Source: a virus. From it: a DNA stretch of 24,717 nucleotides. Shown in pieces: positions 9,770-19,674 of the stretch (the first letter of the stretch is position 1; each line of letters opens with the position of its first letter). The stretch covers positions 1-24,717 of IMG/VR virus record IMGVR_UViG_3300033150_000333; one strand, 5' to 3'. Both the position numbers and the translations under genes were made by a program. The notes below the pieces were generated by a model, which did not search any database, had not been told where the DNA came from, and saw only the letters and a program-made list of their open reading frames with translations.

Positions 9770-9792
9770 TTAATCATTCCTCCTCTTAACTT

Positions 9793-12740: not shown

Positions 12741-13907
12741 TTATGAACCGCTGCCGTTACTGGCCACGGTCATCTTCGGATCCATCCTAGTCCCACCGAG
12801 CACGTGCCTTACTTTGTACTGGATGCTGTCAGTATCAAAATCACCGGCCATCGGGTCGGCAGCACCGCCGCCGACACGCTGAGCATTTGGGGCCTTGATG
12901 AAGATCTCCGGTTCAGTGTGGCCACGGAGAAAACCTATCTCCAGGGCAGGCCTATTGTTGCCCGGATCGGCGAACAGGAACCATGAAGTGTTGCCGTTTG
13001 CACTGCTAGCTACAATGGGGATATACGGGTCAACATGCAGCTTCAGCCGGTTCTTCATCCAGTTGACAGCAATCAACTTTTGATTTGAAGTCCCGCCGGA
13101 TTCAACCAGCTCCAACTGTAACGCGTTTAGAATATTCTCGGCTGTAATTTCCAGAGCTGGAGGCACTACAAGGTGAACAGCGTCAATAACAATCGGCTCA
13201 CCGTCTGAATCGGTTTGTGCAGCCAGAATTGTCATAGCAGTTTGCAGAGCGGCAACAGACAGCGCCGGATTGCCAGTTACAATGTTGCTGTTATCAGCCG
13301 TGTAGAGACTGGCATGGGGACCGCTAGAATCGACGTACAGGCCGGTAGCGAATTTCTGTTCTGTCCTGCGGGCAGCCCTTCCAAACCTGGCCGGAATGTC
13401 TTTCAGCGCGTCAAGGTCGTCGTTTATCATAGATTCCCAGCTAAACGGTATCCGGCGGCCATATTTCTTGACGCTGTACTCGTATTTACCTTCACTTAAA
13501 CTGCTTTCGGGATATTCAGCCTGCTGTTTAACCTCGCTTAATACCGCCTCAGCCCCGCTTACGGTAAACCGCTTAACTGTGCGGAAATCTCTTACTGTTG
13601 CAATCCTGCAGTAATTGCGGTAAACAGCCGGGGCTTCCCGGTAGTTAGCTAGAAGCTGCCGATCCAGGATATCCCCAAACAGGTAAGGAAAATCGCTGGT
13701 GGTCATGGCCTCCTGCAGGTGGTACATAGGCCTGCGGCCCTCAAAAACGTCCGCCACAAATTTGGCCGCTTCGGCCAGCTTCGCCATATACTGCGGGTTG
13801 TTGCGCCCGCGTACCTGGCGCACGCCCTGGCCTTCTCCGCCAAAAAGCCTCTGAACAGAGGCTTCTTCTGCTCTTATACTCTCAATAGTTTCCAAGAATT
13901 CAGCCAT
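12741..13907 (-). CDS. Major capsid protein
   Basis: 388 residues from ATG 13907, chosen for the AAGGAG upstream; the frame extends nine codons to ATG 13934, which lacks a good ribosome site, so the longer form is possible. Features: an N-terminal acidic helix (M-A-E-F-L-E-T-I-E-S-I-R-A-E-E), Y-G-R-R-I-P-F-S-W-E-S-M-I-N-D-D-L-D, then F-L-R-G-H-T-E-P-E-I-F-I-K, and V-R-H-V-L-G-G-T-R-M-D. This is the Mu gpT-like branch of HK97-fold capsid proteins. It follows protease/scaffold and decoration genes, as in gpT-type head operons. Confidence 0.88.
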   Translation of the reverse strand: MAEFLETIESIRAEEASVQRLFGGEGQGVRQVRGRNNPQYMAKLAEAAKFVADVFEGRRPMYHLQEAMTTSDFPYLFGDILDRQLLANYREAPAVYRNYCRIATVRDFRTVKRFTVSGAEAVLSEVKQQAEYPESSLSEGKYEYSVKKYGRRIPFSWESMINDDLDALKDIPARFGRAARRTEQKFATGLYVDSSGPHASLYTADNSNIVTGNPALSVAALQTAMTILAAQTDSDGEPIVIDAVHLVVPPALEITAENILNALQLELVESGGTSNQKLIAVNWMKNRLKLHVDPYIPIVASSANGNTSWFLFADPGNNRPALEIGFLRGHTEPEIFIKAPNAQRVGGGAADPMAGDFDTDSIQYKVRHVLGGTRMDPKMTVASNGSGS

Positions 13908-13937
13908 TCTATTCTCACTCTCCTTAATTTCCATGTA

Positions 13938-14954
13938 TTACTCAGTTTCAATGTAGTAGACGTACACGGTCATCTCACCAGCTGATATGTTTGAAAAATC
14001 AGCAGAGCCTGTTACAGTTATACGGATTGTCTGAGCAGCTCCTATGCCATCACAGCAATCAGCCGGAGGAGTAGACCCCACAGTTCCAGCAGCGAGGACA
14101 GACTGATCAGTTTGTTCGGTAAAGCGATCTAAGTCCCCACTAACTCCAGCTTGAACTGTTGCAGTCGTATCACCTGTGAACCCCGTAGTAACCACAAATT
14201 TTGTTGCTAAAGGAACTGCTCCTTTAGGCAACTGAGTAGCCAAATCTACATATCCTGTTGCATCTTCATTGTCTGTAAAATCACCGATTGCAACCTGTTG
14301 GGAAATTACATTAACTTTAGGAACTGCCAGCTTAGCAACTGTCCAGATCGCATCAGCAAACAATGCCCTAGTTGTAGCGTCTGCCTGGAAAGCTCCATCA
14401 GCGATTGCTTTGATCAGGAATGCATTTTCCATGCTGTCAGTCGCAAATTTAGCCAAGGCAGCTGTTGCATCAAAAAAGCCGTCTGCCATTTTAGCACGGC
14501 CAGCGACAGAAGCAGCTAAAGCGTCATCAGCCAGCTCATCCGTCCCAATTGCCCCAGACAGAATATCTGCCGTGCCCGGTCCAGGCGAAGGCAGAACCAA
14601 TACTTTGATCGTGCTGGTGGACCCGCTGCTTACAGCCTCAAGCGCAAATCCAAAGAAATACCCACTGTTCTTTTTACTCAGGAAACCGCTACCGTCGCCA
14701 ATGTCATTATCAACATAGTAGAGCTGGTCCCCCGCAGACACAGCAGAATTTCCGCTGTCGTTTACGCCCTTAACGCTAAGTTCATACACGGCGGGGCCAA
14801 AATCAACTGTTGTAGTGCCGTCGCTTCTTTCATCTGTAAGCGCAACACCCGTCATCTGTCCAACTCGGACAGGCTGGCCCGAACTAGGAGCCGTCGGGTG
14901 AGAACAGGTTACAGACAACTTTCTGCCATACTCGTAAATCCTGTTAGTTGCCAT
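13938..14954 (-). CDS. Capsid decoration protein, DUF2190-like with C-terminal extension
   Basis: 338 residues. Residues 1-~125 resemble DUF2190 decoration proteins: an early Y-G-R-K-L-S-V-T-C-S, V-R-V-G-Q-M-T-G-V-A-L, D-F-G-P-A-V-Y-E-L-S-V-K, A-V-S-A-G-D-Q-L-Y-Y-V, then F-F-G-F-A-L-E-A-V. The middle (130-215) is Ala-rich and helical with repeated A-D-G-x-F and A-x-F-A-D motifs. The C-terminal ~110 residues are a beta domain. DUF2190 proteins stabilise capsids from outside; the extension may make a head fibre. AAGGAGG precedes the ATG at somewhat long spacing. Confidence 0.72.
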   Translation of the reverse strand: MATNRIYEYGRKLSVTCSHPTAPSSGQPVRVGQMTGVALTDERSDGTTTVDFGPAVYELSVKGVNDSGNSAVSAGDQLYYVDNDIGDGSGFLSKKNSGYFFGFALEAVSSGSTSTIKVLVLPSPGPGTADILSGAIGTDELADDALAASVAGRAKMADGFFDATAALAKFATDSMENAFLIKAIADGAFQADATTRALFADAIWTVAKLAVPKVNVISQQVAIGDFTDNEDATGYVDLATQLPKGAVPLATKFVVTTGFTGDTTATVQAGVSGDLDRFTEQTDQSVLAAGTVGSTPPADCCDGIGAAQTIRITVTGSADFSNISAGEMTVYVYYIETE

Positions 14955-14970
14955 CTTTTTTCATGCCTCC

Positions 14971-15393
14971 TTATTCGCGCCCTTTTGCGGCTATCTTGGC
15001 AGCAGATTCGCTCAGGCCTAGCCGCGCAAAGGAGCTTTCAAGATTTTTCTCTACTTCTTCCATGTTCACGTCTCCACCACTGCCGCCTTCACCCATGCCC
15101 CTGATGTTGCCGGAACCGGTCACTTTAGCTAGATAATCAACTTCTGCATCTACAGCCTCTTTGATTTTCTTTTTATATTCGTCCTTGTCCAACTCATCAT
15201 TTTTGAGCACGGGCTTCTGTGCCAAACTCTCCACCAAGCGCTGCTTGGTGATATCCGGCAGTTTGGCTTCCTTCAGCTGCTCAGAAACAAAGTCCCTGGC
15301 TTCTCTCAGTATCAGGGCCTCCTTTAAGCGCTTATTTTCATCTTCCAGCCTGCTTTTAGCTTCTTCAAGCTCCTTGAGTTTTTCATCGCTCAT
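14971..15393 (-). CDS. Nested in-frame scaffold protein from an internal start
   Basis: An ATG at 15393 (Met542 of the polyprotein) is preceded by GAGGAGG with eight-base spacing, a near-perfect ribosome site inside the coding sequence. The product would be 140 residues: M-S-D-E-K-L-K-E-L-E-E-A-K-S-R-L-E-D-E-N coiled coil, then helices and a G-x-G-E-G-G-S-G-G linker. That is exactly the scaffold module of the parent protein. Nested scaffolds sharing the protease C-terminus are known in lambda (C/Nu3) and Mu (I/Z). Expression is inferred. Confidence 0.72.
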   Translation of the reverse strand: MSDEKLKELEEAKSRLEDENKRLKEALILREARDFVSEQLKEAKLPDITKQRLVESLAQKPVLKNDELDKDEYKKKIKEAVDAEVDYLAKVTGSGNIRGMGEGGSGGDVNMEEVEKNLESSFARLGLSESAAKIAAKGRE

Positions 15394-17016
15394 TTTCTTC
15401 GCCTCCTCTAATTTTTGTTTGTCGCCATATACGGCCGCTTTGATTTCCGCTCTCATTTCTTCAACTAGGTCGGGTCTATTGCGCTTCACCTCGTCCAAAG
15501 TAATGGCTTCCCATTTCACTTCATTGTCACTCCTTTCAGCCGCCTTTTCCCGAGCGGCTTCAAAAAGTTCTAACACCTTTCCTCCCCTGCCGGCATCAGT
15601 AACAAAGTCGACCGATTCGGCCACGGCAATTTTTTCAATTATGGGTCCGGTCTTGCCCTCAGCCTCACCCTGCTTTGCCTGGCCTAGAGCGCGGTGGCTG
15701 AGGCCGATGTGCGGCGCCAGCTCTCCTAACGCTTCTTTGTATGGTGTAAATACCTTGGCATCGGCATAGACGCCAGGACCGTCCGGGCCGTTTTCTTCAT
15801 ACCGCCCGTCGGAAACCAAAACGCCCGCCAGATCTCTCAGCGAGCGTTCGGGCCGTTCGCTTTCTTCAGTTTTAGTTGGATGGTCCCAGTACATTTTGGT
15901 GCCTTTCTTATAGACGCCAGCATCGCGTTTCAGCACGGCTTCGCTGTAATACCCGCTAGTTCCCCAACCGGGGCTAATAATCTTGATGGGGATTGTCCCA
16001 TCCCTGTGGACGCCTTTTTCAATTAACGGCACAAATTCGTCTTTTAAAGTTTGTTTATTATCCGCCTCTTTGATATGATTCGGCATCTCTTTCGGATCCC
16101 GGTCCGGATTAACTTTCTTCCAAGCTGCCCTGAGCTTAGCTTTTACTTTCGCAACATCGCCGGCCGGAATATCTACCTTCTGGCCCCTAAACCCCCCGGG
16201 GCTGAAAGCAGCTATTGCCCGGCCTACCTGGGCAGCGGTCATCTTTTTCTGCGGGTCTTCCCAGAGCCGGAGCTTCCAAGTTGACGGCTTCTCCGAGTCA
16301 GGCACATAAGCGTAAGCCTCGGCTGGGTACTGCTTGCCATCCTCGGTTTTGGTCTTGGCTTCTGCTAATCCACGGTGAGATTCCTGCGATTTTACGGGTT
16401 TGTAGGTTATTTCTTTTACTACTTCAACCGGGTCACCCAGCATTACCTTGCCGTTGTCGTCAATTACATAAGTGCGTTTATAGAGCTTCGTTTTACCGGT
16501 AGCGTCATCCCGAGGTTCATCTTCGTAAATGAAATAACTGCTGAATACATCACGGATGAAGTACCAGCGCTTGGCTGCTGGGTTTTCATTGTGTAGTGCC
16601 TGCCGGAGCAGTTCTCGGATTTGTCCATGGCTCAGCTCGGCTTCAATTAGCTTTTTAGCTTCCCTTATAGCCTCTTGTTTTTCAGCTTCTTCAACGTTAT
16701 TTCCGGCACTTAATTTAGTCAGGATATCTTGTAGAGCTTTTATAGCCGCCCTAATTTTGCTTTCATTTTCTTTGCTTACCACCCGGCCTACTTCCTCAAG
16801 CTTCTGCAAAGTTTCTTGCACTTCATTCACGCTTTCCTTCACTCCTTTCGCTACAGCATTAGCCTGTCTGATTGCACTTGCCTCACATTTTTGACGTTCA
16901 CCTCCAGCCTTCAGGCACCTGTCCAACGCCGAGTTAGCAACTTTTATCCAGACCTCCTTTTGTTTGTCGGTAAGGCCCTTTATGTGTTTGTCAACATCGG
17001 CTTTCTTCCACGGCAT
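14971..17016 (-). CDS. Prohead protease-scaffold polyprotein
   Basis: 681 residues in modules. 1-60: a ChaB-like helical domain (P-W-K-K-A-D-V-D, then C-x8-C). 230-305: a DUF6582-like segment (Y-V-P-D-S-E-K-P-S-T-W-K-L-R-L-W, F-S-P-G-G-F-R-G). 325-480: a serine-protease-like domain with W-D-H379-P and G-L-S440-H-R-A, probable His/Ser catalytic pair by analogy with Mu gpI-type proteases. 540-681: a charged coiled-coil scaffold. The gpT-type capsid gene downstream supports this reading. It overlaps the small zinc-protein gene by 37 bases. The catalytic assignment is inference. Confidence 0.78.
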   Translation of the reverse strand: MPWKKADVDKHIKGLTDKQKEVWIKVANSALDRCLKAGGERQKCEASAIRQANAVAKGVKESVNEVQETLQKLEEVGRVVSKENESKIRAAIKALQDILTKLSAGNNVEEAEKQEAIREAKKLIEAELSHGQIRELLRQALHNENPAAKRWYFIRDVFSSYFIYEDEPRDDATGKTKLYKRTYVIDDNGKVMLGDPVEVVKEITYKPVKSQESHRGLAEAKTKTEDGKQYPAEAYAYVPDSEKPSTWKLRLWEDPQKKMTAAQVGRAIAAFSPGGFRGQKVDIPAGDVAKVKAKLRAAWKKVNPDRDPKEMPNHIKEADNKQTLKDEFVPLIEKGVHRDGTIPIKIISPGWGTSGYYSEAVLKRDAGVYKKGTKMYWDHPTKTEESERPERSLRDLAGVLVSDGRYEENGPDGPGVYADAKVFTPYKEALGELAPHIGLSHRALGQAKQGEAEGKTGPIIEKIAVAESVDFVTDAGRGGKVLELFEAAREKAAERSDNEVKWEAITLDEVKRNRPDLVEEMRAEIKAAVYGDKQKLEEAKKMSDEKLKELEEAKSRLEDENKRLKEALILREARDFVSEQLKEAKLPDITKQRLVESLAQKPVLKNDELDKDEYKKKIKEAVDAEVDYLAKVTGSGNIRGMGEGGSGGDVNMEEVEKNLESSFARLGLSESAAKIAAKGRE

Positions 17017-17258: not shown

Positions 17259-18092
17259 TTAATCACCTTCCTCCGGCTTGCGCCTGTATAAGCAGTCACA
17301 CCTACATCCCGGAAACCTCGGCGGCCGCTGGTGGCCGCTGGGAAAAGGCTCGTCAATATCAATCCAACCCGCGTCCTGATTCTCCTCACAGCCGTCAGAA
17401 ACCCGGTCATCCCCCACAGTTAGCCAAGACTTTTCCATAAGAATGCCCTGTTTCTGTATCTCCTTGGCCGCGATCCGGTTGCCTTCCTCGTATGCTTCCG
17501 CGGTCTCGGTTACAGCCACCAGGTGCGCCCTGCTGTCAATGTGCTCCTGCGGCTTACCTACCGCAAATTCCTCGAAATGGCTGGATATTTCCCGGGCCAT
17601 CCGATCGTAGGACCAGCCCTCTTCAGTGCCCTTAATAATAATGGTCTTTATTCGCTTCCGGGTGGTTTCATTGATATTGGTCACTTTTTCAGCAGCATGT
17701 AATTCTAAGTATTCAACCGCCCTGGGATTCTCAAGGTCAAACGCAATATTGACTTTCAAATCAGCTATAGTTTTTAGAGCGGCTGCCTGCAGTGCCTTCT
17801 TTGCGGCTTCTTTTATCGGCTCACGAATTAAATCCGACGTTTCCATAAATACCTGGTCAAAGATAGGGTCCGTTTCATCGTCATCGATTGATTCTTTAAG
17901 CCTGTAAGCCTCTTTAAATCGCGACTTAAATTTTTCGAATCTCTGCAAAAAAAGCTTTCCCTGCTTACGGAAAGCTTTCTGCATTGCTTTTTCAAGCTTT
18001 TTCTCCAATGGCGCCAATGCTCTTCTCTTGCTCGCCCTGTGCATCGCCTCAAGGAAACGGTCCAGGGCATCAAGCAGCTTCTTTGCTTGCAA
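17259..18092 (-). CDS. Minor head protein, Mu F / SPP1 gp7-like
   Basis: 277 residues. A basic helical N-terminal half is followed by the Mu-F domain: W-S-Y-D-R-M-A-R-E-I, then A-V-T-E-T-A-E-A-Y-E-E-G-N, then W-L-T-V-G-D-D-R-V-S-D-G-C. It ends with the diagnostic C-terminal P-P-R-F-P-G-C-R-C-D-C-L-Y block (metal-binding Cys). These proteins attach to the portal and are ejected or guide head assembly. The start overlaps the portal end by 23 bases. Confidence 0.9.
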   Translation of the reverse strand: MQAKKLLDALDRFLEAMHRASKRRALAPLEKKLEKAMQKAFRKQGKLFLQRFEKFKSRFKEAYRLKESIDDDETDPIFDQVFMETSDLIREPIKEAAKKALQAAALKTIADLKVNIAFDLENPRAVEYLELHAAEKVTNINETTRKRIKTIIIKGTEEGWSYDRMAREISSHFEEFAVGKPQEHIDSRAHLVAVTETAEAYEEGNRIAAKEIQKQGILMEKSWLTVGDDRVSDGCEENQDAGWIDIDEPFPSGHQRPPRFPGCRCDCLYRRKPEEGD

Positions 18093-19674
18093 GCTTCCTC
18101 ACCGCCTCCCGGAGATCACGGATGGCATCTACCATCATGGTTTCAATTTCTTGTTCCTCTTCTTTATTCCGGCCCTTCCCTTCTTCATCATCTGGGAATA
18201 AATCTTCGAGTATTTCATCCACGTTTTCTTCACCGAGCGCCAGGAGCAGCATACGGGTGATGCGCTTCAAGTCCAGGGTGCCGGCCGGTGCTTTACCGTC
18301 CAGAGTGGCTGCGCTAACGATAGCGCTTACCTTTTCTTTTACGTCTTTCTCAAGAATGTCCGGGAAGGTAACGTTGACCCTGTCGCTCATGTCGCCTGCT
18401 AGTTCTACATATTCTTCGCCGTATTCGTTTTTAAGAACATTACCCTGCAATTTCCCTCGCGGAGCTCTAACTGATTGCTCAATTACAAACTGGCATATTT
18501 CCTTGAATACACTGGCCCACAGCTGCTGCCTATCTCTAAACATGAGCTCCATCGGCCGTTCCATGCTTTTAGCCGTAGCCAAATTGCCCGTGCTGGGGTC
18601 ACCAAAGTAATGCTCATATATGCCGGTGGCAGCTGACACCATCAAGAGTAGTCTGCGGCCGTCTTCGGCCTTTGTAGTGGCGCCAGCCGTCTTAATCGGT
18701 TCCAATTTCGCCCCTTCGGTACCTATGAAAGTTGAAGCAGTTACGGGTGGCGGATTGGTTTCGGTACCCGTATTGATACCTAATGTGCTCTGTAGTTTAT
18801 CTTTTGCTTTAGCAATACCCTTTTTACCGCCCTTGGCCGTGAGTTGCCATGCGAAACGCGAGTAAGCTTTTACAATGGTGGCCCAGTTCTCCAGGAACTC
18901 CTTGTATGCCCGGGCCCAGTCAATGCCCGCATAAACCTCTGATACGCCAAATTTCATGTCACTGAGCTTGTTCACCGCCACATGATAAACTACCGCATCT
19001 TCCACCTTTTTGCTTGCAATGGTTTTGGCGGGGTTCGGATTTTTCCAATCTGGATAATACGCCGTTCTCTGCCTCACTTCATGCTGTCCGGTGCTTGTAT
19101 TAAACCTGCGCTCCGTCCAGTCGCGTTTATAATAAAGCGGCGTCTTGGCATCCTCCGGATCCGTAATGATATCACTTATCTCATCAACCGGTATGGTCCG
19201 AATCCTCACCCGACCGGTGCTCTTGTTTACAAAAAATACGAAAAAGATATTTCCAAATACCTGTAATTCAGTCTCTTTCACCATCCGCGCCTGGTGTTCG
19301 GTGAGTTCTGCCCGGTTTTTCGGGTCGTCCAGGAATTCTTGAATAACTTCGTTAACGTCCGGATCTTCTGCTTCGATATTCACGCCCTGGCCAAAGACGT
19401 ACTGGGTTTGTGTTAGCACGGCCCGTTTGATGAGCGGGTTCTTTATCCAGTACAGCCGGGCCAGCTGGTTGATTTTGCGCAAGCCCTCCCGAGAAAATTC
19501 TCGCTGGCTTTCAGAGGAAAGCTTCATCCAGCCGGCATCTTCTAATGCCAACTCCAGCTCGGCCAGACGCTCTTGCAGTAGTTCTAAGCTGTCGTCCCGC
19601 TGTTGTATAGATTCCTGCATTTTTTGTATGTCTTCCGAAAGGATTTTCCTGGCTGCTTCTTGAAATATACCCAT
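18070..19674 (-). CDS. Portal protein
   Basis: 534 residues. N-terminal coiled coil (Q-R-D-D-S-L-E-L-L-Q-E-R-L-A-E-L) precedes the portal body: Y-V-F-G-Q-G-V-N-I-E-A, then F-G-N-I-F-F-V-F-F, then R-I-R-T-I-P-V-D-E-I, and S-A-A-T-G-I-Y-E-H-Y-F-G-D-P-S-T-G-N-L-A-T-A. The last two blocks are common to SPP1-type portals. An acidic C-terminal tail follows. It forms the dodecameric DNA channel at the capsid vertex. The ATG shares a CATG with the start of the antisense gene; GGGAGAGAT serves as ribosome site. Confidence 0.9.
   Translation of the reverse strand: MGIFQEAARKILSEDIQKMQESIQQRDDSLELLQERLAELELALEDAGWMKLSSESQREFSREGLRKINQLARLYWIKNPLIKRAVLTQTQYVFGQGVNIEAEDPDVNEVIQEFLDDPKNRAELTEHQARMVKETELQVFGNIFFVFFVNKSTGRVRIRTIPVDEISDIITDPEDAKTPLYYKRDWTERRFNTSTGQHEVRQRTAYYPDWKNPNPAKTIASKKVEDAVVYHVAVNKLSDMKFGVSEVYAGIDWARAYKEFLENWATIVKAYSRFAWQLTAKGGKKGIAKAKDKLQSTLGINTGTETNPPPVTASTFIGTEGAKLEPIKTAGATTKAEDGRRLLLMVSAATGIYEHYFGDPSTGNLATAKSMERPMELMFRDRQQLWASVFKEICQFVIEQSVRAPRGKLQGNVLKNEYGEEYVELAGDMSDRVNVTFPDILEKDVKEKVSAIVSAATLDGKAPAGTLDLKRITRMLLLALGEENVDEILEDLFPDDEEGKGRNKEEEQEIETMMVDAIRDLREAVRKLASKEAA

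Follow-up and report, generated by a model that had tools for sequence, protein, structure and literature searches.

Conserved internal start signals in a family of viral head maturation protease genes point to a nested scaffold gene

The window, a stretch of 24,717 nucleotides of viral DNA (IMG/VR record IMGVR_UViG_3300033150_000333, positions 1 to 24,717), has a predicted head maturation protease gene with what looks like a second ribosome site buried inside it, and this raises the question of whether one gene makes two proteins. The gene is an open frame of 681 codons on the minus strand (14971..17016). The first-pass annotation had described GAGGAGG eight bases ahead of an in-frame ATG, and both are present on the minus strand: the Shine-Dalgarno (SD) sequence reads from 15408 to 15402 (15402..15408), the 8-nt spacer is CGAAGAAA and the ATG begins at 15393 (15391..15393). 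This ATG is codon Met542; it is in the same frame as the 681-codon ORF and opens a C-terminal product of 140 codons (14971..15393, minus strand), a predicted scaffold of 15.6 kDa with a pI of 5.1. We consider it very likely that the gene encodes two in-frame proteins, the 681-residue protease-scaffold protein and a 140-residue scaffold made from the internal start.

The predicted anti-SD pairing of the internal site is -11.7 kcal/mol, slightly stronger than that of the full-length start (-10.2), and the internal SD is predicted to be unpaired in the local RNA fold. GAGGAGG occurs four times on the minus strand of the window and never on the plus strand. The combination GAGGAGG-N4-10-ATG is present three times versus 0.38 expected, a number that none of 100 shuffles reached, and the remaining two copies, at 9785 and 21801, are at the starts of listed ORFs. 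When the codons of the gene were shuffled synonymously, an SD this strong appeared at the Met542 ATG in 83 of 5000 shuffles (about 1.7%) and an equally strong one at any internal ATG in 412 of 5000. Therefore, the evidence from this single gene is modest, and the weight comes from the homologues. A second, weaker in-frame candidate (AGGAG-10-GTG) precedes the main one both in the window (codon 500) and in the relative L010, where the Val is 20 residues past the GG motif of the protease ORF and the SD is -8.2.

Homologues were collected in two sets. The first consists of 92 loci: the window, six chosen phage records (L004-L009), 80 viral hits that were the best among 140 (L010-L089), and five hits in genomes (L090-L094). 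L001-L003 are not counted, because they duplicate the window, L010 and L030. These loci form 70 clusters at 90% identity. Alignment A2 contains 63 of the 70 representatives (without L005-L009, L082 and L094), A3 contains 62 (also without L004) and A7 contains 61 (also without L092). In the linker between protease and scaffold, we scored in-frame ATG, GTG or TTG codons with an SD of -7 kcal/mol or stronger (<= -7). The first eight residues past the protease GG motif were excluded because Gly codons there mimic SDs. Both this exclusion and the -7 threshold were set after viewing the first set, and so, further homologues were fetched and scored unchanged. This second set came from 151 loci: the top 80 of 378 hits and the top 80 of 197, which share members with each other and with the first set, and a single genome locus. 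Allowing no more than 90% identity to the first set left 34 clusters; they are from the same collection and family and hence are not phylogenetically independent.

An in-frame linker start with such an SD is present in 63 of the 70 clusters of the first set, versus 13 in frame +1 and one in frame +2. Three hundred synonymous shuffles gave a mean of 36.4 (sd 3.8) and a maximum of 47, and windows of the same length gave expectations of 11.4/70 in the protease domain and 10.3/65 in the scaffold. At a threshold of -9, the numbers are 46/70 in frame, eight (+1) and one (+2), with 23.5 +/- 3.3 in the shuffles. The second set has the same pattern: 32 of 34 clusters have a site, versus eight and one in frames +1 and +2, a mean of 17.8 in 200 synonymous shuffles (sd 2.3, maximum 23) and 5.1/34 for the protease control. 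Thus, a linker start with an SD was found in 95 of the 104 clusters. Individual ATGs behave in the same manner; in the first set, an SD of <= -7 precedes 57 of the 84 in the linker, 23 of the 201 in the protease and seven of the 139 in the scaffold C-terminus.

The start codon itself varies. The linker has a Met in 59 of the 70 first-set clusters, and 10 of the 11 without Met have another start with an SD of <= -7 (nine GTG and one TTG); the other Met-less linker, that of L006, has a GTG behind a weak SD. In the two sets together, 18 linkers lack Met and 15 of these have a Val with an SD of <= -7 upstream. When these Val residues were picked regardless of codon, all 15 were encoded by GTG, versus a background of 36% (p 2.3e-7). 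A looser test on all Val residues in first-set linkers gave GTG in 15 of 23 that are preceded by an SD and in 68 of 192 others (p 0.011); eight non-start Val codons in these linkers are also preceded by an SD.

Synonymous bases just upstream of the start are biased as well. In the codon before the Glu that lies just upstream of the first linker Met, a final G is found in 44 of 62 cases versus 704 of 2097 elsewhere in the first set (p 5e-9), and in 22 of 28 versus 373 of 1002 in the second (p 1.4e-5). The preference for GAG over GAA before the linker Met was not significant (48/67 versus 1694/2838, p 0.058). Compared with the median of the other windows of the gene, RNA folding at the start is weaker in 61/63 and 32/32 genes of the two sets (93/95); compared with the median of synonymous shuffles, it is weaker in 42/63 and 21/32 (63/95). 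The median internal SD (-10.25, as the best of several starts) is about equal to that of the next gene (-9.05); a correlation between internal and downstream-gene SD strengths was not significant (Spearman 0.20, p 0.099).

The close relatives illustrate how the signal is kept while the peptide changes. None of the four closest (84, 70, 65 and 56% identity) has lost the internal site, a loss that, according to the first-pass annotation, would have counted against its reading. The closest one (L002/L010), 84% identical over protease and scaffold, keeps GAGGAGG, the 8-base spacer and the ATG, and only 56% of the codons for identical residues are unchanged. In L011 (70%), AAGGAGGG lies ahead of the ATG and the peptide is changed; L012 (65%) has GGAGGAGG ahead of a GTG, and L013 (56%) has AAGGAGG ahead of an ATG. 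Farther out, the linker peptide LEEAKKM of the window is VKESNSM in L003 (47%) and AGESSM in Methanoculleus virus Blf4 (45%), and despite these differences, AAGGAG in L003 and CAGGAG in Blf4 both precede an in-frame ATG. The SD, the start, its frame and the weak local RNA structure are a conserved initiation signal.

Could this signal be something other than a start? One suggestion is that the SD-like sequence is a ribosome pause between two domains that aids co-translational folding, without initiation. SD-like sequences inside genes have been proposed to slow ribosomes, although this is contested, and the one considered here is indeed near a domain boundary. However, a pause requires no start codon, no reading frame and no alternation of ATG, GTG and TTG, whereas the first-set sites are in frame in 63 clusters versus 13 and one out of frame, and GTG was used in all 15 SD-preceded Val codons in Met-less linkers; we regard a pause as highly improbable. 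Slightly less probable still is that the linker peptide is what is constrained, for example as a self-cleavage site of the protease (KE...M or EE...M), with the SD as a by-product of Glu codons. Glu is common at this place, since 54 of the 63 SDs are in the phase G|GAG, and shuffles that keep the peptide retain on average 36.4 of 70 sites. About half of the genes still have a site after such shuffling, which means that the peptide accounts for part of the signal. But the other nine of the 63 SDs have another phase or core, the SD-forming stretches of the 63 genes translate into 28 different peptide strings, the Met is replaced by a GTG-coded Val or a TTG-coded Leu, and the synonymous bases are enriched. 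On these sequence comparisons, the excess over shuffles, the frame preference and the start-codon alternation are not explained by the peptide. A cleavage site in the linker may exist alongside the internal start.

Granted an internal start, the short product might be made and not be a scaffold; it could regulate or dimerize with the protease or recruit the portal, with another protein doing the scaffolding. We think this unlikely, yet a better prospect than the two explanations above. In its favor, the scaffold function is assigned by inference only, and a PHROG search with the 140 nested residues gave weak matches only (tail fiber phrog_2929, E 0.032, and head maturation protease phrog_976, E 0.092). 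On the other hand, no other scaffold candidate stands out in the portal-to-capsid interval, the predicted model is mostly helical in the C-terminal part, and by analogy, the scaffold is on the C-terminal side of the protease in each of P2 gpO, lambda C/Nu3, Mu I/Z and herpesvirus UL26. The position of the C-terminal part, its helical prediction and these analogies thus suggest a scaffold role.

In the AlphaFold model of residues 327-681 (pLDDT 84.4, pTM 0.45), a beta protease domain is followed by a long helix (residues 515-581; 15274..15474, minus strand), which contains the internal start, and by a helical C-terminus. The first-pass annotation had the start exactly at a coiled-coil scaffold module; the word "exactly" should be read as approximate, because the predicted helix begins about 27 residues before Met542. 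The position of the start relative to other modules also varies among the homologues. In the Methanoculleus-virus group, it precedes one conserved sub-module, and in the window, it follows the same sub-module. In MinS1, LuckyBarnes, Montesquieu, TripleJ, L009 and L094, the protease is followed by a module of about 100 residues and the start comes only after this module; therefore, the site tracks the scaffold part and not the distance from the protease. The module has stretches like W.WV.DFD and VWFE, and the loci noted for it are L007, L009, L094, L122, L123 and L130.

The protease domain itself (residues 335-487; 15556..16014, minus strand) has a predicted T4 gp21/assemblin-like fold (AlphaFold pLDDT 91.9, pTM 0.86). 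The head maturation protease profile phrog_15531 matches residues 339-530 (E 1.7e-26), as it does the Kukla and MinS1 proteins. Using the protease-only model, the best structural match in VIA-align 2 is T4 gp21 (5jbl; Z 9.6, 126/153 residues, 3.3 A), yet with only 15% identity. Matches to herpesvirus assemblins have Z values of 4.9 to 7.2; these are weak by themselves, and rows for unrelated MCE domains reach 5.7 and so overlap the lower herpesvirus rows. Foldseek found nothing at E <= 0.001 with either model (327-681 or protease only), its top rows being lipid-transport MCE domains; T4 gp21 is absent from the best 50 VIA-align 2 rows for the longer model, and when the family profiles were searched against the sequences of solved structures, all matches were at chance level. 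In T4, the main scaffold is encoded by a separate gene. His379 (15880..15882), Ser440 (15697..15699) and Asp470 (15607..15609), all on the minus strand, are the candidate catalytic His, nucleophile and third catalytic residue, respectively; they are invariant in the 61 sequences of A7, and the putative roles are judged from this alignment. Ahead of the protease is an N-terminal extension (residues 1-334; 16015..17016, minus strand) with a phrog_19463 match at residues 211-320; homologous ORFs are mostly shorter than the window gene in this respect.

The surrounding genes form a head module in the order terminase, portal, Mu F-like protein, protease-scaffold gene, cement protein and major capsid protein. 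On the minus strand, the portal gene is at 18070..19674 (phrog_10963, E 1e-94) and the Mu F-like minor head protein gene at 17259..18092 (PF04233). The next gene downstream of the protease-scaffold gene encodes the decoration (cement) protein (13938..14954, minus strand; PF09956), and the major capsid protein gene (12741..13934, minus strand) matches Phage_capsid_4 (PF25209, E 1.3e-46) and the Mu gpT family (PF10124, E 9.4e-6). The portal-to-capsid interval also includes a 92-aa ORF that matches no family. The cement protein has 338 aa, with the Pfam cement domain at residues 10-118 only, versus a 113-aa ORF at the same place in the relative L002. The capsid protein also matches protease/capsid families (phrog_133 and, below the cut-off, the NF045541 fusion model); going by these matches, relatives with the protease and the capsid protein in one chain may exist.

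Some genes do not fit so well. The first-set clusters below the threshold are L006, L020, L022, L036, L058, L068 and L090 (7/70), with L068 (-6.7) and L090 (-6.9) being near misses; in the second set, they are L148 (-5.2, GTG) and L206 (-6.6, ATG) (2/34). L020 and L058 keep the in-frame ATG and have no SD, and their next genes likewise are without strong SDs, which suggests hosts that initiate without SDs. L022 and L036 have only an internal AGGA (-4.3) and good SDs at their next genes (-9.5 and -11.1), and so, they argue against a simple rule. More than one candidate start is present in the linkers of L014, L048, L070 and L083, so that the site that was scored is not necessarily the site that is used.

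The SD score was also applied to known systems, and it is an imperfect guide, because the annotated nu3 start in lambda C (codon 239) scores only -2.7 and seven of the 11 Z starts scored in the Mu family do not reach -7. As only four of the 11 reach it (the Z start of Mu itself is at -7.4), the -7 threshold is strict. The strongest in-frame SD with an ATG in lambda C is at codon 309 (L096:2843), with a score of -9.7 and a product of 131 aa; a revised Nu3 start with a product of roughly this size is described in the literature. P2 O has no internal site, i.e., no in-frame start with an SD of <= -5 from codon 111 to about 40 codons before its end.

Among 18 named isolates, which were chosen from the records found, 10 have a linker start with an SD of <= -7: Blf4, Kukla, MinS1, D_HF5_3, JustBecause, Quantum, LuckyBarnes, Montesquieu, Erenyeager and TripleJ. 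In JustBecause and Quantum, the site is five residues past the GG motif, inside the zone excluded from the main test. The remaining eight have a linker start with a weaker SD (-0.3 to -5.9). No nested gene is annotated in the examined stretch of any of the 18 records.

The first-pass annotation had compared the site with the lambda C/Nu3 and Mu I/Z logic, in a Gram-positive phage. The nested in-frame start is supported by the homologues; the host may be Gram-positive or not, with homologues known from actinomycete and cyanobacterial viruses and from a virus of a methanogenic archaeon. Mu also has an in-frame internal start with an SD between protease and scaffold, its record annotating Z with 'start site internal to gene I', and its head module has a Mu F-like gene (PF04233), a protease/scaffold gene and a gpT-related capsid protein in the same order; PF25209, which along with PF10124 matches the window capsid protein, also matches Mu gpT. 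However, no sequence similarity of the protease to Mu I was detected (no PF10123 match at E <= 0.1, no phrog_328 match and an hhalign probability of 1.0-1.1%), and in 11 Mu-family sequences the Z start has a weaker SD (-5.6 to -7.4). In lambda C/Nu3, the C-terminal part of the protease gene likewise encodes the scaffold, according to the record annotation, but the same record labels lambda C an S49 family peptidase, whereas the window protease models as gp21/assemblin-like; hhalign gave a probability of 0.1% for the two, and no S49 family is among the Pfam, PHROG and NCBIfam matches. Profile comparison thus detected no direct relationship to either Mu I or lambda C. The window gene very probably contains a scaffold gene nested as in lambda C/Nu3 and Mu I/Z, with a protease of a different family.

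The herpesviruses provide a further comparison. UL26.5 is its own nested transcript with its own promoter, whereas the nested product here would come from an internal ribosome site; a scan of 14900-16000 for sigma-70-type promoters found minus-strand sites only downstream of the internal start and none upstream of it within 15400-16000. UL26/UL26.5 encode a maturational protease with a C-terminal scaffold and, from the nested gene, the scaffold alone, and about 10% of the total scaffold comes from the long protein (PMC12474303). P2 gpO has an N-terminal protease and a C-terminal scaffold in one gene and does both jobs as one protein (PMC7552001); a scaffolding protein of phage KSP20, which bears on the P2 gpO comparison, is among the viral fold matches at rank 40. 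In the Pseudomonas Mu-like phage PaMx73, an internal start at Val177 of gene 27 has been proposed, with the SD ACGAGGA and a 9-nt spacer, and its authors give the protease gene 33% similarity to Mu (PMC4378225); we liken gene 27 to the window gene by layout. Scaffold and protease are separate genes (gp33 and gp37) in the Pseudomonas phage JBD30 (PMC11445458). An internal scaffold start for the window protease family was not reported in the open-licence literature covered (including PMC4378225, PMC11445458, PMC12749128, PMC12474303, PMC7552001 and PMC3224144), which is not proof of absence.

How might such a gene work? Initiation at 17016 would give the 681-residue protein, with its N-terminal extension, gp21/assemblin-like protease and C-terminal helical scaffold, while other ribosomes would bind the internal GAGGAGG and start at Met542 to make the 140-residue scaffold alone. 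The free scaffold would assist procapsid assembly by the capsid protein. The full-length copies would bring the protease inside by means of the shared scaffold part, and the protease would then cut the scaffold and the capsid protein at maturation. Synthesis of the short product, its role as a scaffold, its amount relative to the full-length protein and the cleavages are our inference.

An arrangement known from phages lambda and Mu is very probably common throughout a family of phages and archaeal viruses that has received little study. It is likely that this gp21/assemblin-fold family, across viruses of bacteria and methanogenic archaea, keeps a nested scaffold gene under selection on initiation, as the prokaryotic-virus counterpart of UL26/UL26.5, and that this gene has gone unannotated in the isolate records examined. 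This would join the gene-in-gene logic of lambda and Mu to the herpesvirus protease-scaffold genes. It also leads to a testable family-wide prediction, namely an extra scaffold protein in the 95 of 104 clusters noted above, including cultured phages of Arthrobacter, Brevibacterium and Glutamicibacter as well as Methanoculleus virus Blf4. Annotators would have a rule from it, namely to check the linker past the protease domain for a start codon with an SD.

A few minor observations concern the relatives themselves. A first scan of genome contigs found no relative and a second found five; a sample of 398 genomes from the phylum of the Alkalicoccus genome gave two matches, one of them the Alkalicoccus genome itself. 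In this region of L002 (L002:4781-5981), the N-terminal part, which belongs to one continuous gene in the window, is a separate 161-aa ORF, and an asparagine-synthase-like ORF (PF00733, E 6.7e-22) lies between it and the protease-scaffold ORF. In L003 (L003:4035-5501), the ORF at the Mu F-like position has 488 aa with a C-terminal extension, which, judged by eye from a motif, may resemble an ADP-ribosyltransferase.
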